The notes under the pieces: generated by a model
The model's database searches: none
What the model was told of the DNA's origin: nothing
The model's input: only the letters and a program-made list of their open reading frames with translations
Origin: a virus
Direction: 5' to 3' (one strand)
Virus record (IMG/VR): IMGVR_UViG_3300045125_000073
Location: 24,812 to 88,811 of that record
Length of the DNA stretch: 64,000 nucleotides
In this document: positions 12,406 to 59,962 of the stretch, one piece after another
How the letters are laid out: the number at the start of each line of letters is the position of its first letter
Position numbering within the stretch: the first letter of the stretch is position 1
Translations under genes and position numbers: made by a program

Positions 12406-12431
12406 AATGTATTATTCCTTAAATTTATAAA

Positions 12432-13393: not shown

Positions 13394-13394
13394 A

Positions 13395-14082: not shown

Positions 14083-14097
14083 AATATAAATTTCCTT

Positions 14098-15130: not shown

Positions 15131-15155
15131 AAATATACCACATAAAATACAGAAG

Positions 15156-19573: not shown

Positions 19574-19620
19574 GTAAAATTCCTGTTATAATATATTGTC
19601 TGAGTAAAAAAAGAATTAGA

Positions 19621-19845: not shown

Positions 19846-19883
19846 TTTATCATCTTTTCGAGGTTTTGCAAGATTCTTTTAAG

Positions 19884-20294
19884 TTAGAATCTGTCTTCGG
19901 GCATATTCATCATTTCTTCTAACATTTTCTCTAAATTTTGTTGAATGCATAGCGAATCATGTTCCGTAAAGAGGTGGAAGGGCTTCTTGTTGTATTTGGA
20001 GTATACAGGTCTGAGCTTTGGCAATTAAATTTATCTTCTTTTTTAATTTCATTTTCGTATAAAAATGCTACATCTTTTGATGGTTCTAACAAGGTAGTAA
20101 CAGAATCTTTAGAAATAATTGTCTGTCTATCAGAAGAAAGAATTAACCAGTTTTTAAGCATAAACAGCTCTTTCATATTACCAAACAAATCATGAGAAAC
20201 CATTGATTTTAAACACCATAGGACGATGTAATTTATAACTACCGTCTTCTGGTTCGTGGTAACACCAGCTAATCAGTTCTTCACCCGATTTCAT
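19884..20294 (-). CDS. Protein of unknown function downstream of uvsW
   Basis: Joined from the ATG at 20294: MKSGEELISWCYHEPEDGSY, FKINGFSHDLFGNMKELFML, LILSSDRQTIISKDSVTTLL, VAFLYENEIKKEDKF, and a C-terminal QQNLEKMLEEMMNMPEDRF with a stop at 19884. About 136 residues, soluble, acidic C-terminal helix. Frame changes near 20215 and 19965. No family recognised. Its start lies six bases after the uvsW stop. Confidence 0.6.
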
Positions 20295-36852: not shown

Positions 36853-37510
36853 TTAATTTTCCAAATATATTCGCCTAAACAATCGCACGCCCAACCTTTT
36901 CGTGTTTTTCTTCCAATAATATTTTTACCGTAATCTGCTGACATTGTTATTTTGTTGTAGTGTACATAAAAGACACGTCTCCCATGTGAATATTTGTTTG
37001 TCCGTTTGATGTAAATGTGGTAGATGACATATATTCAGTGTCTAAACAATGGTTTGAATTTATCCGTAGAATAATTATATGATATATTTTTAAAGTAAAA
37101 TGCCAAGTTCGTCTTGACTCGGTATATACCAATCTATTAAATCCTCTAGTCATCAGTAATAATCTCTAACGAGCATCCATCAAGAACATTTTTGTTTACG
37201 ATCCTCTAGTTCGAATATGTGTTGTAGTACCCATCATACACAGAAGATCCCACAAGTGTTAACGTGTTCATCTGGTTGCATTACACGATGAACTCTCCGT
37301 AGTCTTCATTGCTGGCTAACCAATACCCACGCTTTTTCTTTTAGTTCCTGGCTCCATCAGCCTCGCGCCTCATAATCGGATGATACTTTGTGGCCAATGC
37401 ACTGCCGTATACGGTAGAGAACCTACAGGTTATAGTAGGAGGTACCAGGCTTGAATATGCCAACAAATATTCCACCCTGATACTGATCTCCTACATTTGG
37501 TAGTTTGTCA
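36853..37510 (-). other. C-terminal DUF1566/Lcl-like domain of the giant adhesin
   Basis: Joined frames read ISQNPIDKLPNVGDQYQGGI, FVGIFKPG, AWVLVASNEDYGEFIV, VGSSVYDGYYNTYSN, YIPSQDELAFYFKNI, YMSSTTFTSNGQTNIHMGDV and a final VRLFRRIYLEN. The block order (GDxYQGGIVVGIFxPG, VASxxDYG, DGYYNT, WYIPSQDELAFY, SSTxFTS, VRxxRRI) is that of DUF1566/Lcl domains found at the ends of phage fibre and bacterial surface proteins, which have a C-type-lectin-like fold. Confidence 0.75.
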
Positions 37511-40500
37511 ATAGGATTTTGTGATATAGTTAATTTTGATTTGATTACGTTTTACGGTGTTGCCTTCTACTTACTTCAGAGTAATATATTCCTTGAGCAT
37601 GGAGACAACACCAATACACGACAAAATACCAGAAATTCCTGGAGGAGCCCAGACATCCACCGTTACATTCGTTTCTTACGGTGTTTATAGAACAATCAAC
37701 CGTATCTGGCATTGTTCAGCACTTTGTTGTACAGCAATTACCGTAAATATTTTTAATATCGTAACAATTACTGATTATCATTAGGATTGCAGTTATTAGA
37801 AATATCTTCTACAGTAATCTTTACACCATTACAAGCAATATTACCGCCTGCATTTGAACAAACTTCTCCAGGATAAAAAGAGTACGGAAGACCTTCTACT
37901 TCTCCTTTATTGGAGTTCTGCGCATTCTTGTTGGGTATCGGTGGTTTGCAGGTTTGATAATAATAATTATCTGCCTTTTCCCAGTAACAACAAGCCCCAG
38001 ACTACAGGAGCAAGAAATGGATTTGCAGCACAAGGAGCATCAGTAGGACAGTTTACTGATGTGGTTTCTCCAGGTAAAAAATACCCGGTTCTATTCGAAC
38101 AATCTGCTCTTGTGATATCTGCGATGTTTGGTCCACAACAATAACCTGTCGTAGTTTGCCCTACGACACCACCTAAAGCCAACGGAGAATATTCTTGTAT
38201 TCTGGATCTAAATTGTATGGACATTAACAATCCTCCAACGAATTACAGAACAACAAGTTGTTAGTGCAGTCTATATTAGCACAAACACCGTCTATATTTT
38301 TACTTTTTATGAGAACATTATCTAATGAGAATTCGTCTGAAGTATCAGGAAGTCCCGCAATAAATTGTTGTGAAAGGTTTTGCTCTAACAGTAAATATTC
38401 TTGTAATAGAACGCGCATCTGACTGTCTCCATTTACTATAACATTGCCCTGATCGTTTAATATATGTTTACAACAACTCTCATCTTAAATACAATTTTAA
38501 CTATATTTTCTCCGTTTACACGAGGAGCCCATTCTGATGCTACAGTCGGTGTAAACACCAAAATTTTGCTGGTACCGTGAAAGTTGTATTGATGATTTTT
38601 AGAATGCAATATTTGTTGTTGTTCAGGGTTAACTTTCAGTATTATTAGCATCTCCAGCAGCATTTAAATCCTTTAACTAACCACCCTTCTAAGATAACTG
38701 ATTGTATCTGTGGATAAAGTCCTTTTTCTATATTTTTGTTTAATACTATGTTTGGGTAAATAGTTACGGTGGAAGCTGTTCCGTCTGTATGAATTATTCC
38801 TTGCTAACATTAGGATTGCTAACAATTGCAGGCATTGCTGTTACAGAAGATACACCACTCGAAAAAGATACACTGTTTACAATATTTGGATCGTGAGTAT
38901 AGATGAGCATTTATCATAGGAACTTCTTATACTTCCTACACCGCCAAGAATACCACCTAATTGAGAAAGATTATTACCGGTAAAGATAAACACAAGACTC
39001 TACCGTATAATATTGATCATTAATATTTCCACGATTCATGAAGATCAAACTGGAAAGGAACTTGAAGAAAATCCTTTGTAATAGTGAACCCCTTCACCCG
39101 GATTCACGAATTTTATAAACCCGTCTTCACTATCCAAAACTCTCTGCCCAAGTGTCGTTAGGAATAACAGTGAAGTTGTCTCCAGGACCTATTTGATTTA
39201 GTGTATACAGGTTTCATCCCATCCGGTCATTGTTCTATTAAGACCTAAATCTAAATGGGCATTTTCAAACGGTAAGCTTATGGGAGTTATTAAATCAGAG
39301 ATCTGGGATTGTATCTGGAATGAATGTAGGTATTACGTGGTGTTGTTGGGAGTGCCAAAGAGAATATTATAGTGCAGATTTTGTACTGGATACCTGATCG
39401 GAACAACCAGAATCTAAAACAAACGGACTTCCACCATCACATCCGGCAATCCACGGAAAAGTATCTCTAACAGAAACTTCAGGTTGTTCTGCACAAGTGT
39501 TTATTGGTCTTATAAACAAATTAAGTGGTAGATTAATTGTGCCAGAACCAATGCCCCAATATTTTCAAAGACGTATCTAACAGATCGCTGTAATTATTTT
39601 TTCCTAAATTGTTAGTACCACACTGATAACAATTTTTATACGAATATTGATCGTACGATTTAAGACATGAATTTTTTCCACCAGAACATATAGTAGAATT
39701 TGAATTACATTCTATAGAATTTGTATAATATTTATCCAACAGATCTGCCACAACCAGTCCGGAAGGTAGTCCTTTAGTGCCTGCGAATGGCACATACTCT
39801 GGTATTTTTGGAAATAAAGTTAAGTTTCCTGTTTTATTGCCGTTCTACTATAACGCATCGTGTCCCAATCACCAAAAAATTCTGGATCGAACACAACACC
39901 TGGCGAGTTTTTATTAATTTCTGAACACGAATTGGTGTATCGTGTATCTACCGTATAAACAACACCACCTGTATTAGGATCTGTTAGTCCTGTGCTTTTA
40001 AATACGTTACCGTCCGTATCACCAGAATACTCAGAATTATTAATAAATTTTAATTTTGGATTACTGGGATCGGTGCGATCTAAATTAGCTTGGGGATATT
40101 TCGCCTATAAGATATAAAGAACCAGACCCACAAGGTATTCCTGATAACAATTCTTTCGTGTCTAATTTTGATATTGTTGTAAAAAGTCCTGGTAACTGGT
40201 TTTCTGGTCTGTTTATACTAACAGAAACTACCGTATTTCCAAAATCTGAATCACCATTTAGTAGTTTTGTTGAACAAAATTTATCTTAAATCTATATTTC
40301 CAGATATTCTATTAGCCACCAATCTAACAACTCCCCAGTTGTACACAGAAACACAACCGTCTACTCCTGTCATTCCTACAGGAACGGATTTAGTTGTGAT
40401 GAAATTATTTTTTTGTACTCTAATTCGGTTTTTGAAAGTATTGGTTTTTTTACTTAATATTAAATAATATTTTACGGTTTCGTTAGTATTTGGTGTGTAT

Positions 40501-43500
40501 TTAAATATAGCATTACCGTTAACATTATTAAACATGGCTGATTCCAGTACACGGAACTATATCTGATGTAGGATTAAGTCTTACTGCTTGATTTTGTCTT
40601 GCAGGATTAAACGCCAATCTTGGGTTTGGTCCACCGTCATTATTTTGTAGAGCTAACAATCGTTGTCCCAGAGAATCTAACAGTGTTTTAATGTTTGGTG
40701 GAGTAATGCCGTATTTGGTTAATTTACTGTACGATTCCGGAGAAAATTCTATGGTATTGTAATACGGATTAAAACTTCTTCCTGCAGGACAATTTGTGGA
40801 AACTGGTGCTATTTTTGTTTCACCTTTAAAGCTACCAACATTATTTGTAGAAAGATTTTGTAGCTGATAGTATTACACGTAGGATCGGTAAAGAACTGTA
40901 GAAAATTGTTCTGCAAGCCCAAACAACCGTTGCCACACAACCACTAGAATCTGGAGTATTGACTTCTGTTTGTTGGTATGGGTCTGGGGTTAAACTCTGA
41001 ACGGGGCTGTTCCAAATTCGTCTACACCACTTTGTATATCTGTACAAGATTTATTGCTGACACTTCTTCTAATAAGTCAGATTTGCAAGTTTCGGTTTGT
41101 TGCTACCATTTACATTATAAGTACAATCCCAAACGTTGTCGTATATTAGAATACACAGCAGAATCTAAACTTATACCCCAACCACAGTCTTGTACTTGGG
41201 CTACACAAACGTTTGCAAATAACTTGTTGTTCTTTTAGAACTGATGGAGTACAATCATTCACAATTGGAGTTGTATTTTTCGGCAATCTGTGCAGTACCT
41301 CTGCATGGTTGCACGTAATTTGCACTTTATATTTGCTGGATTAGCGTTCTACCGTGCACGAATCTACATCCTCTTCTGGTTTCTGCGGACGACCGTTAAA
41401 ATACATCAACAAATTTAGCGAAGAACAGTAGCACCACTTGCAGTTCTTTACAGTCATCTGGTAGATAAACTGGTCCTAGATCTGTCACATGCACCATTGT
41501 TAACCGCTAGGATCTAGCCCATGGATCGAATACGTAACAGTCACAGGAACCACTAGCTTGATTGGCTGTACATTCGGTCGTGTTATCCGGTTTGTCCCAG
41601 TTTCTGTACAGTTATGGTTGGAGAACCTGGAGGTAAGTTGTGGAACTGTTACCGTATTCGAAGGTAGAACTAATTTTAACTGGTGCTAGCGAAGTTGGTA
41701 GTAAAGCGATAAGATTAAAATCAGCTTCGTATCTAAATGATCTGGAGTTCCTGGTTTGGGCGCTCTTTTGTAAAGCTACCTTCATTCAATACATTTCTAG
41801 TCTGTATGGACCGTCGATTGGTGTTTAAGAAAGTATTCGTAATTGTCTGTGACATGGGGTAGTGCAGTCTCTGCTCAATAAAGTCCACTGACCAGAGCAA
41901 TTAGAAAATGTGGTTTGTGAGCACATTCCAGCCACTACAGCATTTGCCTAATAGCACCTTCAACAACCGCAATACACGGATTTGTAACTATTTTTCTCAG
42001 ATCCTAGGATAAAATACTCCATTGTTTTGCTTAAACGCACGACAGTTAGCGCAGTTTGTTGCTACGGAAGTACAGCCTTCGACAGCAATACACCCCAAAC
42101 AAGATGTGATCGCATTGCTTCACAATTACTAACACAATTTGCGGGAGGAATAATCGGTGATTCTGCACCAGGAGACTTCTGGACAAACAAATCTCTAAGC
42201 CCTGTTCCATTCTGGAACAAAACGTTTCAACACACGGTTTTAAAGTAGGAGCTCCACCTGAGCAAATTTACAAGTCTTGTAACGGTAGTGGATTTGACAT
42301 AATTTCTTAGACCAGATGGTATTGCATCGTGGCAAACAACAATAACACAAGCTGGTCTCCGTTTCCCGTCGTTACGAATATTAGTGCAACCTATATCACC
42401 ACAAGTTTGATCCTAAGTAGTCTAGTCCAATGACCAGTATTCGTACCACGGATATACAGACTTTTGTCTGCACTGAATATCTGCTTTCTAATTTTACTAC
42501 ACCACCAACGGATTCACAAAAAAAGTTAGTGCAGGACTATTAAATTGTACTTTACCACAATCAGCAGCAGCTTAGATACAATTGCACAACAATGCCCATT
42601 AAAACAGCCGTGTTGATTGGTTGTTGCATTGATATTGTTTTCCGTCTACGTCCTGTGGCTGTAATGATTTGAACTTGAGGCCAAACATTATCTGTCAGTC
42701 CTGGTAAGTATCGTGTTGTGGATAGAATTTATAGTCTGTAATCCACTCTGGTTAGTCTTACAATTTGGTCCTAACACAATTTTGTTGGTTTGTTATTAAT
42801 TGAGCACAATCAGATCGTGTTAGTTGGTTTGTTGCGGAGGTCCACCTGGGCCACCATAGACCTCCCAACGAGTTAAAACACAGACAGTCATCTGGATTTC
42901 CACATATTCCTATCTCGTTATGGACCACAAATGATCTGAAATTTGATTACAGTGTTTATTCCTGAAGTAAAATGGCCTCCTAATGCTGCACAGCCGGATC
43001 GTTTTGGTGTTTGTGGCACAGACCGGATCCCAGACAGCATGCACCGTCTTCATTCACTTGACAGAGAGTAGATGTACAGGGGCCGTCTTTAGGAATTCCA
43101 CCCAAAAGAAGTACAAGCAGACTCTTCTACATCTATTATAACAAAAACCGTCCACACAACAAGATCTAAACACACCACACGAGTCACTACAAATCTTTTG
43201 AGGAGTAAATACTCCTCCTAAATAACTTGACGCAGATTTCTGGTGAAACGTATTCAGTAGCATAAGCTGGTATCCACTGTTATGACAGCACGATCCCACA
43301 GAATCACTGTAAAACGGACCACCATATCCCATACCACGCGCAACTATGGCACCATTAAATGTTAAACCGCCGTTTGCTGGTCCACAGATGAAGAATATTA
43401 GTTCCAGATAAAAACCCATAGTTGGTCAAGCCCTGTGGAGGTTGATGTTGAATCACTAAAATACACATTATGCGGGCAGAGTTCCATAACATCAGATCCT

Positions 43501-44342
43501 TCAACAAAGAAGTGTGTACGATCGAACTGTGCGTTAGAATCCGAAGAAACGAGTAAAGTTTGAAATACCTATGGGAGTGCTGTAGTATTATATGTAGAAT
43601 ATTTGTCTAAATTTACAGTTACAATTCCATCAGAACTAAAACTAGTAATTACGTTGTCTGTTGCTATTGTGGGATTTATTCTGTATAAGGGAGGCAACGG
43701 TGTACAACATTATCCGTAAAATCTGAATAAACTTTAATGGAGCCAGTTGCTCCGTCGTGCTGCTGTTAACCCTATAGACAGGACATTTTTACTGCCTGTA
43801 ATTCCTATTCTGGTAGCTGTGGCAGACGATGTGCTGGTGGTGTACAACAAAAAATTGGTTGCTGTGTTTCCGTAGTTTACTGAATTTGCTGTTTCACTTA
43901 CAGATTAGATAAATTTATTTCGTTTATCAGAAGACTCTAATGAAGCAGCAAATAGATCCAGCACCAGTAATTCCCCTAAATTCTAAAGTAGTTACCACTA
44001 ACAACACGTTTAAATAAACTAAAGACATTGTTTACGTTTAATGAATTGAAAAATGGACGACACACCTGTAAGACCACTGACATTAGAGTAGTTATCCGGT
44101 TGGCTCCAGTGATACCCTGTAGCAAATAAAGTATTACCATCACTTAAACTAAAAGTTATTATATTTGTTTATGGTTCTGGTGATTTACAATGTAATATAG
44201 GCTCCAGTTGATACCTGTGCCTTCCTGTATTACCCGTTCCCTGGGGGCCTGTAGGGCCTCTGGGGCCTGTGAGGTCCTTGAGGTCCTGTTAAACCAGTCA
44301 GTTTGTACTGATTATTGTACTGTTTCCAATAATAGAAGGCAT
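36853..44342 (-). CDS. Giant cysteine-rich adhesin/fibre protein (probably one gene of about 2,490 codons)
   Basis: Starts MPSIIGNSTIISTN, then a collagen-like stretch (LTGLTGPQGP and further GPx triplets near 44230-44300). Continues through GPANGGLTFNGAIVARGMGY, many cysteine-rich modules (for example GSCCHNSGYQL, FRSCCVDGFCYN, GACCLGSGLC, GYCCGPNIADITRADC), folded stretches such as VVYTVDTRYTNSCSE and YNTIEFSPESYSKLTKYGIT, and a C-terminal DUF1566/Lcl-like domain. Frames change every 50-150 bases, so I cannot exclude that this is two or three genes; no clear internal start with a ribosome site was found. Likely a tail fibre or long adhesin for host binding. Confidence 0.5.
37650..38230 (-). 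repeat. Three tandem cysteine modules in the giant adhesin
   Basis: Right to left: TTTGYCCGPNIADITRADCS with YFLPGETTSVNCPTDAPC; GACCYWEKADNYYYQTCKPP with SFYPGEVCSNAGGNIACNG; and GNCCTTKC followed by VDCSINTVRNECNGGC. Each has an adjacent Cys pair after Gly, a following Cys and, in two, a PGE turn. Protein-level repeat, not DNA-level. Confidence 0.7.
42960..43330 (-). repeat. Cysteine modules near the N-terminal part of the giant adhesin
   Basis: Right to left: VGSCCHNSGYQL with a Cys and a GGVFTPQKICSDSCG tail; FRSCCVDGFCYN with EESACTSFGGIPKDGPC; and NEDGACCLGSGLCHKHQND. They follow G/S-x-C-C, a short loop, C, then C-x3-GG. These match the modules of the neighbouring adhesins. Confidence 0.7.
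44225..44300 (-). repeat. Collagen-like GPx stretch of the giant adhesin
   Basis: Minus-strand codons for GPQGP, GPRGP, GPxG and similar (ggccct, ggacct units) over about 75 bases, directly after the first 20 residues. Collagen-like triplets form trimeric stalks in many phage fibres. Confidence 0.7.
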
Positions 44343-44351
44343 ATTTTAATT

Positions 44352-44359
44352 TATTTATA
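44352..44359 (-). promoter_or_regulatory. Late promoter box (TATAAATA) for the giant adhesin
   Basis: Exact TATAAATA on the minus strand, 10 bases before the ATG at 44342, in the short gap after the previous gene. Close to the start, but the leader could be very short or the true start slightly later. Confidence 0.55.
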
Positions 44360-44364
44360 TAAAT

Positions 44365-45525
44365 TTACCCGATCAAAGACAGGCACCGGGCCCTGACTAC
44401 AAATTCGATCTCATGGAAAGTACCACCAAATTTTACACATAATGCTCTAGTAGAATCCACACATCTGCCTGGAAGGCAACAAGCACCCCAATCATCACAG
44501 TCTGCAGATCTTCTTGAGAACACGGAATAGACAAAAATGTTGCCTTGGATGTAATCTACACAATAATCTTCTGTGGTATAATCTAAACAACGTTTCTTTC
44601 CAGTTCCATCACAATAACAACAAGATCCCATTTTTCTTTGGTGTATTTAACTGGTGGTTCTGCTAAACTGTCAGATCTAAACACTCTAGAAGTATATTCT
44701 CCAAAAGTAGTTCCTATTGTGGTTGTGGCTCCAGAATAAGTAGTATTATAATAAAACCTGTTGGTCCATTCTGTAACACTAGACTGTTGATTTATATTAT
44801 TAAAAATATAAGAAGAAGTATTAGAAAGTTGTTTTAAATATTCCCTTACTGATGCGGGTGGTGTCAGATTAATGTTAGTAATGCCTGTGATGTTTTTTAT
44901 TTGTATAAACTGATTTATTGTACCACTTAAAAGATGCCCCGTTGTTATACCTACTGTTGTTTCCGTGTATCTTAAAGACAGGATTACCCGCAGTATCCAT
45001 CAAACCAAAAGCAGTATTTCCGTAAGCTCCTAATATAGAACCTGTAGCTCCAAGGCTTTTATTACTAGTTGTTATTCCATGAAATACCAGATCATCACCA
45101 CTATAGTATAAACTCAATCCTCCTTTTCCAGAAAGACTTGTAAAAAATAAAGTAAATCCACTTTGTCTACTAGGCTCCTCCTGATACAGTTATACCAGAA
45201 AATAATGTATTTATACTAGTTGTTGATAAAGGTCTTAAAGAAATATTAGATCTTATTCGTGATTCTTCTGTTGTTGCTGTATTACCTGATACGCCAGTAA
45301 CACCAAATACCAAACCAGTATTCAAATATAAACTTAATCCGTCAGGATAATTTACTCAACAAGAATAATACCAGCACCAGTACTTCCCGTGTTTCCGGTG
45401 TTTCCTAATGTGGTTATAGAAGGACCGGTTTCTCCGGTAGGTCCAGTTGGTCCTCTAAACGAATATTGACCTTGAAGAGGTATACTACTTGCAAAAAATT
45501 TGTTTGAAGAACCTATATTTCTCAT
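44365..45525 (-). CDS. Collagen-like adhesin with C-terminal cysteine modules
   Basis: Start MRNIGSSNKFFASSIPLQGQ, then YSFRGPTGPTGETGPSITTL and GNTGNTGSTGAG, a short collagen-like stalk. The middle has LLYYSGDDLVFHGITTSNKS, GSILGAYGNTAFGLMDTAGN and PVFKIHGNNSRYNNGASFKW. The end is two cysteine modules: WGSCCYCDGTGKKRCLDYTT with EDYCVDYIQGNIF, and DDWGACCLPGRCVDSTRALC with VKFGGTF. About 385 residues. It shares the N-terminal pattern and module type with both neighbours, so these genes arose by duplication. Probably a trimeric fibre or fibril on the virion. Confidence 0.7.
44390..44635 (-). repeat. Two tandem cysteine modules (clearest copies in the window)
   Basis: This stretch is almost free of frame errors, so the consensus is best read here: G-[SA]-C-C, 2-9 residues, C-[LV]-D-[YS]-T, 4-5 residues, C-V, then G-x-[TI]-F, with extra Cys pairs between copies. 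Confidence 0.8.
45420..45475 (-). repeat. Collagen-like stretch of the middle adhesin
   Basis: Codes for GPTGPTGETGPS followed by GNTGNTGSTGAG, Gly at every third residue. Confidence 0.75.
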
Positions 45526-45533
45526 TTTAATAC

Positions 45534-45950
45534 ACTCTATTTACATCCGGAATATTCCAAAGCTTTAACTCTGAGGGAATTTTATTATCACAACGTATCA
45601 TTCGTATAGGTCTAACTTTATATTTTGTTGCTCTATCTGCTTTATAAACTTTGATAGTTTGATGCGTCTGCGTTAACATCAATATTCATTGCAATAGCCA
45701 CAGTTCCTGGATTGGGGATTGTTGGACTTTGATATATTCCTTCTTGCTTCTGTATAATTAAAGATCCTGTAGAAGTCCAATAAGTTCCATTCAATGGTTG
45801 TCCTTCCAGTAACAACACTTTATTTAAATTGTAACCGGATATATTTATTGTATTTTGAGCAATAAAATGCCATCTCATCGTGGCTTGGTAGATACCAATC
45901 AGATAAACTATTGTTATTTGCTGTAATTCCTTGTGTAGTAGACGTTATTC
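45534..45950 (-). other. DUF1566/Lcl-like domain of the large adhesin
   Basis: DWYLPSHDEMAFIAQ, then NGTYWTSTGS, TVAIAMNI and YKVRPIRMIRCD. The WYLPS-x-DE-[ML] and V-R-P-[IV]-R motifs are diagnostic of this domain. Largely readable in one frame. Confidence 0.8.
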
Positions 45951-48474
45951 CGTCTGATAATTAGCCGGATACATGAAAATGCATTTTCGGTTTGAAGTCT
46001 ATACTAGCAAATTACCTGCCGTACCGTAACCGCTACCAATATATTGTGTGCTTATTGCTTGCATTTATTGCGTATACTGCTCGTATTGTATTATATAAAC
46101 CCCAAGACCGATACCAAACTCCATGTGAGATTGTATGGAGATTTTGCAAATTGTTTTGCCGTTCCTGAATGACCATACAAGTTCAGTTTTACTACATGAA
46201 CTAAACGTGTTGTATAATACTTAGAATCATTGGCTTGTGTTGCACCAGTAAATCCTAACGACCAATAACCTTCAGAATATTTGATATGTGTTTGATCATA
46301 ATTATAATCAAATAAACGTAAATCATTCATAAGTAGCCTATTTCATCTAAAATGGGGCCCCAAGAAGAACCTGTAGATGCCCCAAGCAAAAGTATTTTGT
46401 GTGTATACGTTTGAGTATCTGTATTTTTTATACTATTTGTAGCATCTATAGCAATATCATACGGATAGACTATTAGTATATAAGAATGATTTAATGTCAT
46501 CACACGTTTCATCTACACCGTAAGCATAAAAATCAAAAGTTAGAGGTATACGATTCTGGTGACTATAAGTTATTCCAGATCAGATAAAGTAAATCCATCC
46601 ACAGTAAAAAGACTCATTTAGCTCCTAATATTTTACTTTTTCCTGGAATATAACGAACCAACAACAATACCACCACGCATATCTTAGCTCCAGGATATAC
46701 AGGTACTACCATCTATAAATCCAGAACATGTGTTTGTTAGTTGCACGACATAATGTTCACATAATTTAGATTTTCCTAAATAGTATCCATTATTAGTGAA
46801 ACAATCAGAATATGACTGTTCTGAGGCACACTCCATTCTGACAGCACGGCCCAGTACCAGAAGAACATATTGCAGAACCAAAGGCATCCATAACAAGAAA
46901 CAGATCTACCTTGGAAAATTCCTCCTATATTATCACATTCTGTTCTGGAAATGTATTCACATCCTCCTCTTCCGTTACAACATGCTCCGATATCATTAAA
47001 CAACGACTCGCAATCTACTGACTGAGATGATGTATAGTTACCAGCAAATTTTACATTTTGATCTGTTAGAGACAAACACTCAGTGCAAGTTAAGTTGATC
47101 CGATAAAATATTAGTTGTTTTAATACCATTAGAAATAGTTTGTCTACAACAAACACCGGGTTTATTACAAATAAAATCGTAAGTTGCACCACATGTCGTT
47201 CCCGCACCATGGAAAAATCCTGAACAAGAATTTTCTGTTATAGTTTCACATGTTCCATCGTCTTTACAACAAGCACCAACAGGTTCTGATGATACCACCA
47301 GCTAATTGAGAAATAGGAGGACTAGTAAATATGTCAACATCTACATCCGTATTTCTATTATTTGTGGCTTTTTCTGTGCAATTATTAGACCAAAGATATT
47401 GTTCTGTGCATTTTGTTGGACCCGCATAATCCACTTAGTGTAGCATACCAAACACCGTTAACACCAAAAAAGTAATTCTAAGTTCGCAAGGAACTCCATC
47501 AACAGAAAAACAAGGATAGACGTTTCGAGTCCATTTGATATTAGAACTAAATCGATCAAACAGTCCTACAGGAGGATTTACTGCATTTTTTATTATCAGA
47601 TCAAACGAATAAGCTCTGTTATCTATTGGTGGAGATTTTACTGTTATTTTACTTTTGTTGTTTGAAAAATCTAAAACATACACTTTAGATTTTGAACCAA
47701 ACATTAATTCATTATGTTCTTCAACAAAGGGTCTATAGCACAAGTAATACCACAAGCCGCACAAGAAGCATCTCCTGTTACTTGTTGACAATATAAACCT
47801 GCAAAGTTGCACCGGTATATCCACCACCACGAACTCGTTCAAAAACATTTGCATTATTAAATACCACACCTGTTATGGAGACATCTGAGTCATTGTTTGC
47901 AGTAACACCAGATGTATTGGAAATTCTTTCTATAACTTTATTACCAGTAAATTTTAAAAAGTTTACTGTGTTTATATTTGTTGATACTGTCAATCCCGAT
48001 GACAGTATTAAATTTAAATTTTTATAAAAAGTTGTAGACGATCCAAACAATGGTTAGAACAGGATAAGGCTCATTTATATCTTCTTGTAAAAATTTAGAA
48101 TTGCTATTATTTAATAAGCTATAGGTCTTATTTAAGTCTAGTTTGATATGAAACTTCATAAAAATGGGTTCAATTCCATAACTTACCCGTATATAAGAGA
48201 TATACCAGTTCCCAGATTTAAAAATCTGCAAAATATTGAGTAGGTCCAGTGGTTCCGTATATCTTTGTGCTGGTACCGTAAGTTGCTCCGTTTGAAAAAT
48301 ACGTAATAAGCGAACGATCTACTAAAGAAATACCAATAATGCTAGGACCAGTATTTCCTGTGTTTCCAGATCCTGTAGGACCTGTAGGCCTTTGGGGCCT
48401 GTGGGCCCGGTTGGACCTGTTACAGAAAAAGCACCAGATAATTTGGTTACTGAACTAGATCCTATAATTCTCAT
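45534..48474 (-). CDS. Collagen-like adhesin with cysteine modules and a C-terminal DUF1566/Lcl-like domain
   Basis: About 980 residues from many frames. Start MRIIGSSSVTKLSGAFSVTG, then GPTGPTGPKGPTGPTGSGNT. Then GATYGTSTKIYGTTGPTQYF, KPLFGSSTTFYKNLNLILS, NFLKFTGNKVIERISNTSGV, a CEL-like part, four cysteine modules (46690-47290), a middle SWGPILDEIGYL and YSEGYWSLGFTGATQANDSK, and a C-terminal DUF1566-like domain: LSDWYLPSHDEMAFIAQNTI, YWTSTGSLIIQKQEGIY, AIAMNIDVNADA, TKYKVRPIRMIRCD. It ends NIPDVNRVY at 45534. Likely a host-binding fibre; the Lcl domain would be the tip. Confidence 0.7.
46690..47290 (-). repeat. Four tandem cysteine modules in the large adhesin
   Basis: Right to left: VGACCKDDGTCETITENSCS with GFFHGAGTTCG; PGVCCRQ with a CLSLTDQ tail and SQSVDCESL; DIGACCNGRGGCEYISRTEC with DNIGGIFQGRSVSC; and GPCCQNGVCASEQSYSDCFT with NNGYYLGKSKLCE. 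Consensus: G-x-C-C, 3-5 residues, C-x3-[ST], C, then GG-x-[FY]-x-G and C. Confidence 0.8.
48355..48425 (-). repeat. Collagen-like stretch of the large adhesin
   Basis: Encodes GPTGPTGPKGPTGPTGSGNT and GNTGPS; interrupted by one frame change near 48395. Confidence 0.75.
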
Positions 48475-48479
48475 ATGAT

Positions 48480-52232: not shown

Positions 52233-52245
52233 TTTTAAACCTTTA

Positions 52246-52972
52246 TTAGCTGACTTGTTGTATAATATAGCCATTTTTATAAGCAACCGATGCCACTGTT
52301 CCGTTTGCTGTAACTGTAAGCATAGGATAAATTGGATTACTTTGTAATTCTTTGGAAATTCTTGGAATATTATAAATTATTCTAGCAGCACCAACACGGT
52401 CCGTTGATAACATTAATGTTGGAAGAATCTTGAAGAGTTCTGTCTTCGCCAGCAGCTTCAAAACTATTTTTAGTGCAATTAATTGTCGATATAAAACTGT
52501 CCATTCCATAATTTCCGGCTTTATCGGTAGAAGTGGGTTCTAAATCTGATATTATTAGATCAGCTTGTGGTTTATGCACCCAAAAACCAAATCCACCATT
52601 AAAATTTGGACTCTTTAAAAGATACCATCCAGGATTACATGTTACAGTTATTTTGGAAGCACTAACAGTTGCAACAACCAAAATCAGGACTTAATGGTGT
52701 ACACCCTTCCCATGGAGTAGCAGTCATAGCATTTCCTGCTTGTTCTGAGTATTGTTTTATTCCCCAATTAGCAAACATAGTTTGAGTTAACGTTTGCTGC
52801 ATATAAAAAATTTCTTGCATTTCATTTAATTCTGCAGCCTGTAAAGGAAATCCGGAGCTTGAAAGCAACAAGAAAATAATTTTTAGTTGCGTCTAATTGT
52901 GACTCCACTCTGCTACTAAACGGAGCCCGGAGACAGTGGAAAATTAGTTTTAAATGGTAGTGGTATGCTCAT
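52246..52972 (-). CDS. Baseplate-region virion protein, unknown
   Basis: Joined frames give about 240 residues: MSIPLPFKTNFPLSPGS, FPLQAAELNEMQEIFYMQQT, QTMFANWGIKQYSEQAGNAM, GWYLLKSPNFNGGFGFWVHK, ADLIISDLEPTSTDKAGNYG and VTANGTVASVAYKNGYIIQQ. The QAAELNEMQEIFYMQQTLT helix resembles the DUF4815/ELNExQ segment of phage baseplate and fibre-attachment proteins. By place (between gp8 and fibres) it may play the role of T4 gp9 or gp10. Confidence 0.6.
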
Positions 52973-53418
52973 GATGTTATATCAGTTATATTTATACTAA
53001 TATCAAACTCGTATGTTCTGTTGGTTTGTGGTGTTTTTACAGATATGGGTGTAGATTTTATATTTTGAAACGATACGTATTGACCAGACTTTTTTTGTAT
53101 TTCAGGAGTGATAACTTTAATTACATCATAAGTTTGCGTTGAGGGCAAGGGAGAACCGGCTTCTGATACGGTTAATACTACCTTGTCCCCCACAATAACT
53201 CGCATCTTTGGTGTCACTGATATCAAATCTAAACCCTTGTCTGGAATTGGTTTTGCTGTATTGGTGTAAATTCTATTTGCCCCACCAATCGTACCTCCGA
53301 TTCCGGTTCCCACAGCCGTAGTGTACATTAAATAATTTAAATTTTTTCTTACAAAATAATCTGTTCCTTCGGATACAGATAAGCTTAAGAGTTGTTGGTT
53401 GTCAGGATTAAACGCCAT
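52969..53418 (-). CDS. Virion-associated protein of unknown function
   Basis: An intact 149-residue frame: MAFNPDNQQLLSLSVSEGTD, YFVRKNLNYLMYTTAVGTGI, DKGLDLISVTPKMRVIVGDK, VVLTVSEAGSPLPSTQTYDV and KTPQTNRTYEFDISINITDI. It has AGGAG before the ATG and overlaps the next gene by four bases. Beta-rich, no cysteine. By place a baseplate or fibre-connector protein; I do not recognise a family. Confidence 0.65.
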   Translation of the reverse strand: MAFNPDNQQLLSLSVSEGTDYFVRKNLNYLMYTTAVGTGIGGTIGGANRIYTNTAKPIPDKGLDLISVTPKMRVIVGDKVVLTVSEAGSPLPSTQTYDVIKVITPEIQKKSGQYVSFQNIKSTPISVKTPQTNRTYEFDISINITDITS

Positions 53419-53435
53419 ATAATCTCCTTTATTAT

Positions 53436-54846
53436 GCTATTACAAATGTTGGTCCAGTCGCTGCAAAATCCTATGGTCTGTAAATTTCTAAACGACGAAT
53501 CTCCTTCTGGGAATATCGCCGGAGCATCTGAGCCGTAAAATTTAGGATTAACTAATATTGCCAGTTTGGTTATAGAACCGGTTGTCACATTATCTGCTAT
53601 TTCGTCTGAACTGACGGTTGTTTTTACACGAACACGTTTTGCCGGAACAAATACCGTAGGATCATTATAAAATCCTTCAGGAAAATTAATTAAATTTATT
53701 TTATTACTTAAATTATATGATACAGGTTTTGATCCTTTCACCTCAAAATCAATAACATCAGTGTAGTTAGATCCTGGATTGACTACTTCTATTCCGGTTA
53801 CAAGTTTAATATCACCAGAAGTTGCAAGTACAGGTGGAAGACCTATATCTGTATACGTTATTTGTGTGGTTTTTATCTGTACATCAGCACCAGAACCAGT
53901 TTTATCTTTTATTGTAAACGTAGGATCTCCATAAAACGAATATTGACCTAAACTTAAACCACTGAGATCTATACGTGCAGACAGTATTCCTTTTCGTTTT
54001 CAAAATTATTTAAAAGATATAATGCGTATTCTCTACTAGAACCGGGAGAAAGTGTGTATTTTTCGCTTTCTAGTTGTTCTTTTAATGTTTTAATGGTTTT
54101 TGTTGCTGGACATAGGGGATTTTCTCCCGTATTAGATGACGTAATTCCTCCTGCAGTAAAACCACTTAAAAATAAAGCTTCTCTATCTAAAGCATCTGCC
54201 AATTTTTGACACTCGAAACAATCAGAAAAAATAGTTTCATTTGTTACGTCGCCAGCAGAATATACTTCTCCAGTCAATTCGTCAACACTATTTTCTTTAA
54301 AATATAAACAACAACAACCAAAGGCAGTTACTCCAGTACCACACAATGAACTGTATTTTTCAGTAAATGTTAAATAATTTTTAATGCCCGTTAAATTTGG
54401 TATAGGTAAATCTCGCTCAGATAAGAAATTTAACTGAGAGATATCAACCATGAATAGTGGAATCCAACTGTACCCGTCTCCATATATTTGTATTTCTGGT
54501 TGAATGTGTGATGGTATCTCTGTGGAGAGTCCGGCTTCTTCATCTATTCTATTGTTTGGTTTATTGTCTGTACATAAGTATACAATTCTGTTTTCTGGAT
54601 TGTACACATAGTAATTTTTAGTTACGTCAGGAGGCCCATGCAGTATATTGTTTTCCGTATTGCCAGATATTATTGTCTGCTACAAGACATTTTTCTAGAC
54701 TGTTAATTCGTTTTGCAATAAGAGGATCTGCTTCCAGTACTAAATATATCAGAATCGGTCTGACCAGGCAAACCACCCAATACTAAATGTAATTCTGGTA
54801 AAGCTAGCTCTTGTATAATATTGTTTGTTAGATTTTTAACGCTCAT
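53436..54846 (-). CDS. 8: Baseplate wedge protein gp8-like, with a cysteine insert
   Basis: Start MSVKNLTNNIIQELALPELH, GRSLIAKRINSLEK, YNPENRIVYLCTDNKPNNRI, then QPEIQIYGDGYSWIPLFMVD (the gp8 DGYxWxYLY block), NIIQ..., GTGVTAFGCCCLYFKENSVD and FSDCFECQKLADALDREALF, and a second half VTGIEVVNPGSNYTDVIDFE, FPEGFYNDPTVFVPAKRVRV, ending DFAATGPTFVIA. About 465 residues against 334 in T4 gp8. The extra length includes a cysteine-rich insert of a kind also seen in the adhesins. Confidence 0.65.
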
Positions 54847-54854
54847 GTTGATTT

Positions 54855-55980
54855 TAACTGCAAGTTATGCCTTTATTTAAATAAGTAAAGCCTACAGCAG
54901 GACTTAAATTAAAGAAATCACCTGTATTTATCTCTCCGAAAGACATTCCCTGTATATAATATTTTGCTATCTCTTCGTCCCAATACGGAAAAAGATAGCT
55001 AGGTTGGCCAGTTACACCACCGTACGCTCCAGAACAACCAAAACTGTATCCTACAGTTGCAGTGGATCCTATAGTGTATAGTGCATAATTTTGTATGGTA
55101 GGCGTCTCGTATTCTATAACCTGTACTTCATCTTGAACATCATTATTAAAGATATCAAATCTTAATTGAAAAAAGTCTTTAGTTCCTGCTGGATGTGCAA
55201 GCGGTTTAACAACATCTTTAAATAAACTTTCAGGGTATACTTTTTGGACTATTCACAACATACGAAAAATCTTGCCATAAATCATTATCGTACATCACAG
55301 AATAATTTAAAAAACTACCTGTTGTATTTTTAAAAATTCTGGAAATTCTTCTCCTATTGTATCTTGTTCTTCTAATGGATTTGTTCTCATCCATTCAAAA
55401 CGACCACTGTTTAATCGTAATATGTGCTGTTTAGGATAAGAAACAGAAATTAAATCAGGATCCACATCAAAAAACTGATTTATCAATAATTTAAATGAAT
55501 CTTTTGTTCCCTTTTTTGCGTATAAATTTGTTTTTACATTATCTACCAATTCTATTAATCTATTCGCACTTACAATTTTATCAATATATTGTTTAGGAAA
55601 CGAATTTAAATATGTATTTAAAGTGTGTGTTCGAGTGCTCCATACGGTATACTCTGTAAATCAAAAGATCTTCTAGCCTAAAAAAACTTAAAGAATTTGT
55701 ACGACCATCACATGTCAGCCAGTTGTAATACTGTTCTGTTAAGGATATTAAAACAGATTCTCCTTCGTTAGAAATGCGCAACCAGTACGGAAACAAATCA
55801 CGGATACTTAAAGGATAGGTACAGTTTAATGGAACGTTTTCTGTTGGTGCATAAAATGCAGATAATTGAGAAATTACTGGTGGTTCAAATTCATTAGACT
55901 GTTCTTCTGAATCTATACCATAAATTTCAGCATTTGTTAAATACTGTTTATTTTGTGGTTTTTAGTAAAAAATAAAAGCA
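54855..55980 (-). CDS. Baseplate wedge protein (gp7-like or tail protein I-like)
   Basis: Joined frames: NEFEPPVISQLSAFYAPTEN, DLFPYWLRISNEGESVLISL, TEQYYNWLTCDGRTNSLSFF, RLEDLIDLQSIPYGALEHTL, YLNSFPKQYIDKIVSANRLI, NLYAKKGTKDSFKLLINQFF and VSYPKQHILRLNSGRFEWMR, ending VGFTYLNKGIT. The KGTxxSFKLLxxxFFxxxxxxxYPxxxILRxSxG block is common to marine T4-like baseplate wedge proteins. About 370 residues. It lies between gp6 and gp8 where T4 has gp7, but is far shorter than T4 gp7 (1,032). Confidence 0.65.
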
Positions 55981-55983
55981 TAT

Positions 55984-57737
55984 GTTATACTATTTTACCT
56001 ACACTAGAAACGGAGGGTATATATTCGTCTTTCATTATTATATTATTACTGTTTTCTACTGTTCCTGCCACTCGTATGTTTGTAGATTCTGGTAGAACTC
56101 CTGAATTTATATAAACAATACCTTTAGCATAATCTACAGTTCCTAATTTAGGAATGGATGTAATTCTAAGTCCTGCGCTATTAATAGCAACCAATTCTCC
56201 TATTGTAGCAGAAGGAAACGGTAAAAAGTCACTTAAAGAAATTGTTGTTCCATTATAATTAAATATGCTAGAACTTATAATTCTTCCCATGGCACCCGTT
56301 GTAACTATTATTGCTGGTCGTTTTAATGTGTTTTTAAAGTACAAATATTTTTGACTGTCAGAACCAAACACATCTAATATTACATTTGCAGAAATAATAT
56401 CAAATGAAGTTATATCCGGATAAGTTTGAAACAATACGTCTCTTATACTGGTAGAATTCACATTATTATTAAATGCTAAATTTTGATTGTATATGTTGTT
56501 TATACTAGTTTGTATTGAAGACAGCTGATTAGAAACAATCCCTCTAACATTAAAATTTAATGTCACATTTACTATTTGTGATTTGATGTATTCTGGTATA
56601 ACAGTAACAATACTTTTGTCCTTTAAAAAATTTACATTTTTTGTTACAGTTGGGATTTGTTGAGGTTAAATTTGGTATCAGCATACGATATAAAACACTC
56701 TTCCATAAGAGGCAGGGTCTGCTTCATCTCCACCCCAAATATTAATTTTGTTCTTTCTATTAATTCCAGCAGGGCAATAGATTGGAAGATAATAATAAAC
56801 CGTAATAATCGTCTTTAGTTATTGCTCTATCATTAGCTGCCAATAATTTTGGAGCAAAAAACTTTACCAGATCTAAATCTGGGCCATCTGTTCCGTTATT
56901 AGATTGTGTGTTTGATAAAACTGATAAACTGGAATTAGAAAAAGAAGATACACCATTAGAAACGGTTCCAGACGGAACCAAATAAGATACTGTGACAACA
57001 TCGGTTGGTTCTATATTTTTTCCAAATGATGACTGATAATCATTTATAGTTCTTTTACCAAATATTAAATAAAATCCGTTTGAAAGACGGTCTATAAAAT
57101 AAACCTTTCCTTCGGGATCAGAGGACGGGTTGTATGTATTGTATCTGTGTCCAAACTTCTCCGTTTACTTTTACTGTTAAGTGTTGATATGTCAATATTT
57201 AGTGCTTGCTAAAAATGCTTTCTGGTTTACGGTCTCTACCGAAACTGGCAGATCTATTTACAACCGAAGTTGCTTCGTAATACAATGTTATATTTTGAGA
57301 AGTTCCAGTAGTTAATGTAATACTTTACGGTACAGTAATATTTGTATACTACATTGTTTGGGCTGATACCTGAGAAAATAATCTGTATATGCGTTAAACG
57401 TGAATGGACGAGGACACTCCAGTTTTAGTGGCTGCCGGTCAATTTCAGCTTTTAGAGCTTGTTTTACTAGGAACCAACATATCCTAATGGTTTTACTAAG
57501 TGAAACTATATTTCTTTCTAATTGTAGCGGTATCCAAATAATGCTTCATTTGCTACCATGTTCGCTGTAATACGAATAATATAGGGTGTTATAAGCAAAC
57601 ACGTCCAACAGAGAGTTTAAGGCAGTACCATTGAAATCGTAACCAGAAAATTCTGATTTAGTTTGCAGATACGTCTTTAAAGAATTTTTAATACTTTGAA
57701 AATCTAATGATGATATGTTTATTTGTGGTGTTGACAT
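55984..57737 (-). CDS. 6: Baseplate wedge protein gp6
   Basis: MSTPQINISSLDFQSIKNSL, KTYLQTKSEFSGYDFNGTAL and NSLLDVFAYNTLYYSYYSEH form the strong gp6/gpJ-family start (LDFxxIKxSLKxYL, FxGSxLxxLLDVLAYNT). Later parts include VTVSYLVPSGTVSNGVSSFS, KFFAPKLLAANDRAITKDDY and, in the long final frame, DVLFQTYPDITSFDIISANV with YFKNTLKRPAIIVTTGAMGR. About 585 residues, near the T4 660. gp6 forms the dimer that joins wedges round the hub. It overlaps gp25 by one codon. Confidence 0.88.
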
Positions 57738-58134
57738 TACTTATCGCTACCTATTTTTATGGTTAATGTCTCGTATATGTTCTGGATCTGAGACTAAAGA
57801 ATACGAAACTTTAATTTCCCAGGATGACATTTGCATCCATGTCCTTAATAATATCTATATTTTCTATAATTTGTTCTGGGTTCATTTAAACTGATAATGA
57901 CGCAGCCATATCTGGTTTTTAATAGTTGCTAGATCGCAACTCTAGACGGGCTGTTCGTACACTAAATTGTACGCGTTTCCACCAAAATTATAATCAAACG
58001 GCCTTTCTCCTTTTGTTGTTAGCAGTATATTTTTTATATGATTGGCTAATAGCGTTAAGATCGTATTTTAAATTAACATCGTTAGTTAACTCATTTTTTG
58101 TAAAATTCAAGTCTATATCTGTGTATTTTGCCAT
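57737..58134 (-). CDS. 25: Baseplate wedge protein gp25
   Basis: MAKYTDIDLNFTKNELTSDV, DLNAISQSIKNILLTTKGER and PFDYNFGGNAYNLVYEQ is the classic gp25/gpW start (DIxxxFxxNPxTGDVxxxxDxxAIxQSIKNLLLTxxGERxFxPxFG). It ends VSYSLVSDPEHIRDINLTIK. About 132 residues, equal to T4 gp25. Two frame changes. It sits under gp6 and starts sheath polymerisation. The TAATG overlap with gp6 supports coupling. Confidence 0.92.
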
Positions 58135-58139
58135 ATTAG

Positions 58140-59962
58140 TCCTACTCCGTCTCGCATTAAATACAGATACATGGTGTGTTTTTGTGGTGTAAATATCCTT
58201 TGTACTTTATAAACCATCCATCTTCCATCAAAATTGGGCGCATCTATAGTAATTATTTTACCAGGACTTACTCCAAAATCTCCGTTAACTAATATTTTAA
58301 CTGCGTTGAGCTTGCATTAATGCCATTTGGGCTCTTCTTCGTATAGGAGTTTCTTCGGGTGTATTCCAGAATGTTGCAGAAGTTTTAGAATACTCTTTTA
58401 TAATATTTAAAGTTTGAATTTACAAGTTCTGTATCTGGGCATAACGAAACTTGTGTCTCAACAGAACTGGTGTCTAATGTTGTGGGATACGCACTTCCTG
58501 TGTCACCACCTGTGGCACCAAATATTTTTCTTTTGTCGTAATCAAAAAATGATTTTCCGTTAGTGCCTTGGCCTTCCGGGCGGTGGCGGTGGTGGTGGCG
58601 GTGATGCTTCTGTTAAAAAGGTTTGTAATTGGGGTAATTCGCCTAATTGGGTATCTATAGTATTTCTTTGATTTGATCCTACGAGAGGATTAAAAGGACC
58701 TGGACACGTATGAAATGCTCTCCGACCATAAATGTTGTCAGTATAATTAGCATTACATTTAGCACACCCAGTCCAGCTATATCCAATAGTATCACATTCC
58801 TCTTGTGTTGCTTGTATGCATTTAGAGTTCACAATCAGGATCAATTAAGGTTGCAATCGCATAATAACAGCAAGCACCAGAAGTGGCGCATAAAAGGATT
58901 TGATCCCAACCGGCCTTGTGCATATCTGGTCACTACAACTTACTTTTTCACACAATGCACAGTGTGTCCAACGACCTTGGTAAAGAGTATTACATTCTCC
59001 AAGTGTTGTCTGAGTACACTTACCGCAACCAGGTTCCGCAGCACGCACCATAATCTTCTCCAGTTGTTTCATTTCTCCCTGCTGTGGACAAGTAGGGGGG
59101 AACGCGGACCTACCGCCACCGCCACCGCCACCACCGCCACCGGGCGGTGATGGTGGAATTACAACACCGCCGCCTCCACCACCGCCGCCACCGCCGCCAC
59201 CACCACCACCATCACTACAGGGATTAGGAGAACATACACGGCATTTTGTCCACTTTCCTCCCAGCAGAAGAACAACCAATTTCTGACAGTGTTTGGCAGC
59301 AGCTTCCATCTGTTAAACAACACGATCCCCAGTGGAATTCCAGCAAATTCATATCCAGCATCACAGGGGGAACAGTTGGAGGCACTGGAGGAGTCCTGGG
59401 AGGTCCTGGAGGAGGTAGTTGGTTGGAGGAGTAGTGGTTGGAGGAGTAGTGGTTGGAGGAGTAGTGGTTGGAGGAGTAGTGGTTGGAGGAGTAGTGGTTG
59501 GAGGAGTAGTGGTTGGAGGAGTAGTGGTTGGGGGTCCTTCACAGTGGTAATCCACCCTGCCGTACTTTTGAACCGGTTTTGTGTTTAAGCCTATGGAGTA
59601 TCAGAATCGTACTCTTTCTACACAGTTATAAACAGTTTGAATATCCGAATAGATCAATGCCAAACCAACTGGTATCCTAAATGTATGCACGAATTAAGAT
59701 CACATTCTTTTGCCGGAAGTCATATTTTTGAAAGGCTCCTGCCAGTTGCGCGTCTGTCGGTGGTGTATTGGGATATCTGGTTTTTAGTGGAGCTGGACTG
59801 AGACGGGCAATTACAATACGGATTGTCTGCAGGGCATCCAAGATTAGAAACAGGTCCGTAAGGACTCATGCACTCACTACCTTTACCAGGTTCGTAAGTG
59901 TTATGGTTTTTTTGGAAACCGGGTAAAAAAATTCATCAAGTGGTGTTAGGTAGATACGACAT
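58140..59962 (-). CDS. Baseplate-hub-like protein with Thr/Pro repeats, polyglycine and cysteine modules
   Basis: Start MSYLPNTTTDEFFYPVSKKT; GCPADNPYCNCPSQ; seven copies of TPPTT; PPGPPRTPPVPPTVPP; module GSCCLTDGSC with KWTKCRVCSPNPCSD; about 15 Gly; VVIPPSPP; about 10 Gly; module CTQTTLGECNTLYQGRWTHC; module CIQATQEECDTIGYSWTGCA; then GSNQRNTIDTQLGELPQLQT; more Pro; and a C-terminal VKILVNGDFGVSPGKIITID with NFDGRWxVYKVQRIFTPQKH, ending YLYLMRDG. The last part resembles hub or late-control-type proteins. Low-complexity and modules look inserted into a hub protein. Assignment to gp5 or gp27 is not possible from this. Confidence 0.55.
59108..59215 (-). repeat. Two polyglycine tracts (GGC/GGT/GGA runs)
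   Basis: Plus-strand (accgcc)n-like runs at 59111-59145 and 59161-59213 encode about 10 and 15 glycines on the minus strand, separated by VVIPPSPP. The mixed codons argue against simple polymerase stutter and for selection on glycine. Confidence 0.85.
59421..59525 (-). repeat. Seven perfect 15-bp tandem repeats encoding TPPTT
   Basis: GGTTGGAGGAGTAGT on the plus strand repeated seven times without a mismatch, plus a partial eighth unit. On the minus strand it reads ACTACTCCTCCAACC, encoding Thr-Thr-Pro-Pro-Thr. It keeps the frame, so copy number can vary without breaking the protein. No spacers, so not a CRISPR. Confidence 0.95.

Follow-up and report, generated by a model that had tools for sequence, protein, structure and literature searches.

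A tandem six-cysteine module in fibre and baseplate proteins of a T4-type phage, with a possible relative in the iRhom homology domain

Do the cysteine-rich units that can be read in several tail genes of a T4-type phage form one family of protein modules, and what would such modules do in a tail? This question is raised by the window analyzed here, a stretch of 64,000 bases that covers positions 24,812 to 88,811 of IMG/VR record IMGVR_UViG_3300045125_000073, whose total length is 88,811 bases. Approximately 16 copies of one module were identified in the window, all of which are on the minus strand and are located in four neighboring fibre genes and one baseplate protein. The module pattern is GACC-x5-C-x3-T-x3-C-x2/3-GG-x-[FWY]-x-G-x4-C-x4-C. 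Its six cysteines (C1 to C6) follow the order CC-x5-C-x7-C ... C-x4-C, with GG-x-aromatic-x-G between C4 and C5. The copies, 4, 2, 5, and 2 in fibre genes 1 to 4 and 3 in the baseplate protein, were counted by manual frame reading against orthologues, and two of the five in fibre gene 3 are only probable. The modules occur in tandem, with at least two copies per fibre gene in the window as well as in its intact relatives. The initial annotation of this DNA had proposed a cysteine module common to several tail proteins of a T4-type phage, and the copies in the window and in the intact relatives agree with this proposal. We know of no repeated disulphide module that is shared as an add-on across a T4-type tail.

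The minus-strand genes of the window are riddled with frame changes, above all past about 20 kb. Positions 20000-64000 are crowded with frame breaks, compared with positions 1-20000, where several open frames of 200-439 amino acid residues survive. It seems that the quality of the reads or of the assembly varies along the record. The possibility that the copies are out-of-frame readings, which had been raised with the initial annotation, was thus assessed together with chance. The Gly-Ala-Cys-Cys codon pattern GGNGCNTGYTGY was found seven times on the record's minus strand, and neither on its plus strand nor in a control read backwards. A longer pattern had a single exact match, at 47224-47277, and none in 100 shuffles. 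Moreover, a profile built only from other viruses identified three window copies with domain E-values of 5.9e-9 (46988-46890), 5.1e-7 (44487-44413), and 9.5e-7 (47277-47188), whereas the best E-value in the reversed-sequence control was 0.028. The remaining copies were individually weak (E 0.012 upwards, some of E 80-120), because frame breaks cut them. Together with the unbroken orthologues described below, these results rule out out-of-frame reading and chance. Scans of the window for Rfam families and tRNAs gave no matches.

Intact relatives were used in place of assembly polishing. The gp8-like piece of the window (53972-54679) had 23 relatives, numbered L179 to L201, of which 22 were 52-77% identical to it and one was 32% identical. 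In those of sufficient reach, a series of fibre genes lies downstream of gp8. Fibre genes 1 to 4 have unbroken orthologues in L204 as well as in L181 and L202, the latter being the stretch fetched behind L181. The L181/L202 products are 954 amino acid residues with four modules (gene 1), 380 with two modules (gene 2), 1546 with several divergent modules (gene 3), and 449 with two or three modules (gene 4). All four fibre genes of the relatives map back onto the window by tblastn. In addition, modules were found at the fibre locus of all eight relatives covering it (L181, L182, L188, L189, L192, L195, L196, and L198, the last two of which look like one virus); the initial annotation had named matches in tail proteins of related phages as support for its proposal. 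Fourteen sequences represent gene 1 and homologous genes, and that from L043 shares 31-65% identity with the other 13. Most cysteines of their modules show little or no variation, and a conserved C-terminal domain with PS[HY]DE and RP[IV][RK] motifs follows the modules.

The domain order in the intact relatives is a collagen-like start, the modules, and then an Lcl_C-like domain. The C-terminal domain of L181 gene 1 matched Pfam Lcl_C at E 0.01, which is below the cut-off. Similarly, of 18 records with modules, 14 had an Lcl_C match with E <= 0.01 and none exceeded the cut-off, and the search of the frame-broken window record gave no match. The gene 2 homologue of L196 and L198, which was read in L203, has RCC1-like repeats behind the modules (L196:17151-19592), an unusual tip for a phage fibre, and L181 gene 2 has nothing C-terminal of its modules.

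In the window, fibre gene 1 (45542-48474) is frame-broken and was recovered by tblastn of L181:15802-18663 as 10 pieces in alternating frames, with a collagen-like start, four modules, and an Lcl_C-like C-terminal domain. Its module 1 (47167-47277) is the exact pattern match and scored E 9.5e-7 with the profile. Module 2 (47010-47157, ends approximate) is a divergent, frame-broken GVCC copy placed by orthologue alignment, with E 120 from the profile alone. Module 3 (46884-46988), whose last cysteine is near a frame break, is the best-preserved copy (E 5.9e-9). Module 4 (46756-46870, ends approximate) is a frame-broken GPCC copy, also placed by orthologue alignment; its partial profile match had an E-value of 0.012 (46756-46833), and the reversed match of 0.028 was to the same piece. 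Fibre gene 2 (44416-45537), identified with L181:18630-19769 by tblastn, is collagen-like with two C-terminal modules. The first (44510-44628, lower end approximate) is a GSCC variant recognized through that orthologue (E 84 from the profile alone), and the second (44413-44487) has a profile E-value of 5.1e-7.

Fibre gene 3 (38300-44342, lower end approximate) was identified by tblastn of L202:12139-16776 and L204:10374-14411. It consists of a collagen-like start, several divergent modules, and a long C-terminal part. Three frame-broken modules, which begin GSCC, CCVDGFC, and GACCLGSGLC, are at 42960-43299, where parts had profile E-values of 0.025 and 1.1 and where the match to L202:12139-16776 spans 43578-43123. 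A probable further divergent module is at 41830-41940. A similar unit is present in L202:12139-16776, and the forward E-value of 7.9 compares with 2.1 for a reversed match to the same piece. Fibre gene 4 (36859-38240; tblastn of L202:10836-12182, E 1.5e-43) contains two or three modules followed by a DWY[IL]PSQDEL domain. Its module 1 (38030-38146, GYCC, weak profile match of E 2.2) and module 2 (37820-38001, GACCYWEK, with long loops) were both located by tblastn. The initial annotation had assigned this region to three adhesin genes; the location holds, and the number of genes is four. It had also described the carriers as unrelated. The fibre proteins are not wholly unrelated, as genes 1 to 3 share a collagen-like start, at which genes 1 and 2 cross-match by tblastn, and a motif is common to the tips of genes 1 and 4. 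The description does apply to the baseplate protein and to a gp6-containing frame of L048, which are separate from them.

The baseplate protein (58140-59937) has a long inserted middle composed of PPTTT repeats, three modules, and glycine linkers. The initial annotation had correctly seen modules here and named the carrier hub-like; the carrier is a baseplate protein in its own right, with L179:5476-6582 as its orthologue, and tblastn of this orthologue matches the window protein only at the ends of the latter (59937-59798 and 58398-58140). Each of its modules, all with approximate ends, contains a frame break: module 1 (59200-59328, GSCC, profile E 0.4), module 2 (58925-59049, GACC, from frame reading), and module 3 (58740-58878, GACC, profile E 0.1 for part). 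Among 12 full-length orthologues, GxCC was found only in L179, which has one module; it was absent in the other 11, and the window has three modules. These orthologues were counted among open frames containing FWNTPP.TPL, a motif present in 14 frames, 2 of them partial, and as GxCC alone was scored, very divergent modules would be missed. The module is optional in the baseplate protein. In L048, an open frame of 795 amino acid residues (L048:1279-3663) matched gp6 at E 1.5e-158 (1312-3114) and has two modules behind the match (3313-3576). Given its presence in the baseplate protein and in this gp6 frame, the module therefore behaves as an add-on unit.

Several other features were noted around these carriers. 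L055 has a similar open frame of 800 amino acid residues, and gp6 content was read only in L048. At 59420-59540, a 15-base tandem repeat encodes about 7 PPTTT units of the baseplate protein, and long glycine runs are found further on; the length of both kinds of stretch can change easily. A search for relatives of the hub piece at 60047-60520 yielded 12 pattern matches, none of which was confirmed. The gp8-like wedge protein, so named from its match to phrog_438, has a cysteine insert at 54205-54343, on the minus strand, that the initial annotation had listed beside the modules as a looser cysteine insert. Its reading as a copy of the module was rejected, as the insert has its own distinct cysteine pattern, roughly C-x8-CCC-x29-C-x2-C, which is present in 21 of 23 gp8 relatives. 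The two without it are L200, which is cut, and L201, the most distant (32% identical). The insert possibly acts as a site of metal binding or disulphide formation peculiar to these phages.

The tail context is of T4 type. The window contains gp25-, gp6-, and gp8-like baseplate wedge genes in T4 style; its pieces match the wedge families phrog_438 and phrog_261, and the name gp25 for one of the genes is inferred. L181 gp6 matched phrog_219 (E 8.8e-75) and maps to 57746-56003 of the window, and the gp8-like protein of L181 matched phrog_438 (E 7.2e-9). Among the 30 cultured-phage matches listed for L181 gp6, the best was 29.7% identical, and the hosts include Pelagibacter, Synechococcus, and Sinorhizobium. 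T4-type gp6 is encoded by 30 of the first 50 of the 58 module-bearing viral records. The similarity to T4-type fibres extends to tail-fibre PHROGs, which a number of the fibre proteins with modules match close to the collagen-like start; those of L181 match none. By tblastn, six queries (four viral module-bearing ones, one bacterial, and a window piece) had no match among 50,697 phage records at E limits of 0.001-1, an absence that is not certain, as BLAST masks low-complexity sequence. The C-terminal domain of these tail proteins resembles, at scores below the cut-off, that of the DUF1566 tail proteins of Bacteroides phages, which have a C-type lectin fold and are reported to be targets of a diversity-generating retroelement (PMC8143477). 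Such an element behind the fibre tips was rejected for want of support, as a search of 20 records, which are fragments, revealed no reverse transcriptase; the control was positive in 3 of 14 genomes.

How well is the module defined? A profile of 294 sequences gave the consensus GACCLDDGSCEELTEADCAAAGGTYQGDGTSCAPNPC. In its 875 aligned module hits, the columns C1 to C6 contained cysteine in 860, 857, 866, 858, 847, and 686 hits, respectively, so that the positions of the cysteines, on which the initial annotation had made its case depend, are conserved. The residues between them differ strongly among copies. The module is about 37-41 residues long. Among 798 distinct copies, 301 fit the strict pattern, and the gap between C2 and C3 was 5 residues in 240 of these and that between C3 and C4 was 7 residues in 288. 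Two viral open frames that are very rich in modules, L017:1638-6860 (1741 amino acid residues) and L015:1338-5198 (1287 amino acid residues), vary more widely in loop length than the consensus.

A predicted fold for the module is supported, but not proved, by a two-module model based on 77 sequences, which had a mean pLDDT of 87.9, with 83 of 87 residues at 70 or above. DSSP assigned to it two strands and a short helix, with additional short pieces of strand. To assess which cysteines may be paired, 834 units were collected with a profile whose cysteine columns had been neutralized. Eight units keep C1 without C2, seven of type 101110 and one of type 100100, from L124, L112, L162, and L059, and all eight lack C6 at the usual distance. 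C6 loss was scored with the narrower range in this set, as a wider range reached the next module. With a one-column tolerance, 739 units remained after the exclusion of exact duplicates and of 62 units that were truncated at the end of an open frame or whose start was not aligned. In these, the two units without C1, both from one L149 protein, also lack C4, and the two without C3, both from one L059 protein, also lack C5, one of which keeps only C1 and C4. Two further units without C1 were set aside: that of L110 starts at an open-frame end, and that of L061 has a lone cysteine that is C1 or C2 and lacks C6. The correlated losses support, short of proof, three putative disulphides, C1-C4, C2-C6, and C3-C5. 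Among 12 units scored as lacking C4, those of L110, L108, and L142 have C4 shifted by two residues. In the bacterial frames L173:4763-7999 and L175:2104-6933, an extra cysteine is located directly before C4 (ETCC, QECC) and C6 is often missing; the extra cysteine is a possible alternative partner of C2.

The module is not confined to this phage group. A pattern scan of IMG/VR identified it in 58 contig stretches, and a scan of bacterial and archaeal genomes in at least 120 stretches. A single profile finds both groups, with 198 viral copies in 58 loci and at least 653 bacterial copies in at least 120 loci. Among the 120 bacterial stretches listed, several of which share a genome, 100 are titled Planctomycetota or a lineage thereof, mostly Phycisphaerae, and the other 20 are unnamed bacteria (10), Eisenbacteria (3), Zixibacteria (2), Micrococcales, Myxococcales, Deltaproteobacteria, GN15, and Leptolyngbya (1 each). 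The initial annotation had named related repeats in planctomycetes, which these titles support. The GACC-type repeats of planctomycetes, mainly Phycisphaerae, have the same consensus and cysteine spacing, often with a tandem period of 41 residues. Different from those of phages, bacterial arrays can be longer, with up to 20 copies per open frame. In an even draw from the phylum of L071, 8 of 149 genomes matched, including that of L071 itself and one with only E 8.8e-4 and an internal stop.

When window pieces, viral proteins, and three bacterial proteins were scanned, no Pfam or NCBIfam family covered their modules. RCC1_2 was the only family over its cut-off and is located outside the modules. 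Matches to Pfam Furin-like_2, LEAP-2, GP52, and Apex (E 0.0091-0.15, all below the cut-off), to NCBIfam TafF, EspF, and SclB (E 0.029-0.78, far below the cut-off), and of phrog_3284 to the glycine-rich part of the baseplate piece (E 0.0045) were treated as chance or low-complexity matches. No name for the repeat was found in the literature, as judged from listings and passages, and no description of the module as a shared add-on of T4-type tails, as judged from listings.

The solved structures closest to the module are those of the iRhom homology domain of human iRhom1 and iRhom2 (PDB 8snl, 9o58, 9q7y, and 9xy4), whose second cysteine repeat is CC-x6-C-x7-C-x13-C-x4-C. All six of its cysteines align with those of the module, the gap between C2 and C3 being one residue longer; the first iRhom repeat resembles the module only in part. 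Two profiles, of two modules (A2) and of one module (A3), were searched against 177,635 PDB sequences at E <= 10 and had four matches each, all to iRhom1 or iRhom2, with E-values of 0.069-0.17 and 0.062-0.18, each below usual significance alone. Foldseek with the two-module model at E <= 10 also matched only two chains, of iRhom2 and iRhom1 (E 0.97 and 1.9). Hevein, or the chitin-binding type 1 domain, is absent from these two matches, which does not exclude a hevein fold. VIA-align superimposed three of the four iRhom chains over 41-43 residues at 1.9-2.3 A (Z 4.2-4.6), and the fourth, 9xy4_A, aligned worse and elsewhere (Z 2.2, rmsd 3.1).

Residues besides cysteine also match between the iRhom segments and the module: when three iRhom segments were shuffled with their cysteines fixed, 0, 2, and 5 per 1000 shuffles reached the observed score. 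In a reverse search of 17,823 open frames, iRhom2 repeat 2 had 70 matches at E <= 10, of which 57 were module-bearing (best E 9.9e-6, with reversed frames reaching E 0.2), and the iRhom1 segment had 37, of which 24 were module-bearing (best E 0.002). The 12 best matches of the former and the 8 best of the latter were all module proteins. As 224 of the 17,823 open frames are module-bearing, the set is enriched and these E-values flatter the match. The settings differ: the iRhom domain sits between TM1 and TM2 of a rhomboid pseudoprotease, whereas the phage carriers are collagen-like fibre proteins and baseplate proteins, and this rules out that the phage proteins are iRhoms themselves. According to PMC11248996, 8 disulphide bonds staple the iRhom homology domain, whose structure appears unprecedented; eight disulphides are also given in PMC12184519 and PMC13277793. 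A literature search for a link of the iRhom domain to bacteria or phages yielded only a review on cancer proteolysis, as judged by title.

What, then, would the module do in the tail? The reading that we favor, with moderate confidence, is that it is a disulphide-hardened spacer bead between a collagen-like fibre stem and a C-terminal tip, which is also placed in baseplate linkers. The disulphide-hardened stalk or linker was among the roles suggested in the initial annotation and fits best. The fibre proteins would be made in the cytoplasm with their modules already compact beads. In the oxidizing environment after lysis, the cysteines would form three bonds, C1-C4, C2-C6, and C3-C5, which would lock each bead into a ready-made unit resistant to protease and shear. 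Two to five beads in a row would lie between the stem, presumably trimeric, and any C-terminal tip, which would be Lcl_C-like in genes 1 and 4 and, in one relative, RCC1-like in its gene 2 homologue. Such rows would form a stiff, protease-resistant extension, and fibre length might be adjusted by gain or loss of beads. The same beads could be inserted into tolerant linkers of baseplate proteins. The carriers are presumably present in the virion.

A number of observations weigh against this reading. T4-type tails assemble in the reducing cytoplasm. An Erv1-type oxidase was not found in 18 records, a search in which the control also gave no match and by which absence is not shown. The module-plus-tip model was poor (mean pLDDT 57.5), and the place of the modules relative to the tip was therefore read from sequence order only. 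With that model, nothing in the PDB was below E 2.2, the top three being C-type lectin-like domains, and a search of a viral structure library gave nothing below E 3.7. For the modules of genes 3 and 4 in three fetched stretches, the profile gave no domain with E < 2, and these modules were recognized by manual reading of the cysteine pattern. As for the pairing, the C1-C4 and C3-C5 losses come from one protein each, and only the C2-C6 loss was seen in four proteins. Moreover, 37 of the 834 units keep C2 without C6 at the usual distance. Finally, 25 units score as lacking C1 and C2; nine of them start at an open-frame edge, 15 have CC just upstream of where the alignment starts, with a longer C2-C3 loop, and one (L026) is without CC and is unexplained by the scheme.

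Alternatively, the modules might themselves be adhesive and bind proteins or glycans of the host surface, perhaps through pairing with like modules there. The related tandem modules of bacterial proteins, with up to 20 per open frame and mostly titled Planctomycetota among those listed, would suit this role, and so would the high variability of the residues between cysteines; the extracellular domain of iRhom2, which holds similar repeats, contacts ADAM17 according to PMC11248996. However, tip-like domains (Lcl_C-like and RCC1) come after the modules in several fibre genes, with none in L181 gene 2, and the copies in the baseplate protein are at a place where host contact is not required. We regard an adhesive role as unlikely. 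It is still less probable that the cysteines bind zinc or iron in knots that are stable in the reducing cytoplasm of tail assembly, a role also suggested in the initial annotation. T4-type virions do form in the cytoplasm, and zinc can be bound by CC...C...C sets, but the pairwise losses of C2/C6, C1/C4, and C3/C5 suit disulphides better than a shared metal site, and the nearest solved look-alike is part of the disulphide-stapled iRhom domain (PMC11248996). That the modules are neutral repeats from other genomes, which linkers tolerate and which have no selected role in the tail, would explain their erratic presence in the baseplate protein (1 of 12 orthologues) and is very improbable, as the gene 1 homologues keep most module cysteines at 31-65% identity.

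Repeated disulphide modules belong to the usual kit of animal extracellular proteins. The extracellular domain of animal iRhoms might hold diverged copies of the prokaryotic six-cysteine module, which would have moved among viruses, bacteria, and animal ancestors, a proposal to which we give slightly less than an even chance. If it is true, the module would be the first relative of the iRhom domain, which controls ADAM17 shedding and was reported without a similar structure. The link would also yield a concrete, checkable prediction on the disulphides of the iRhom domain.

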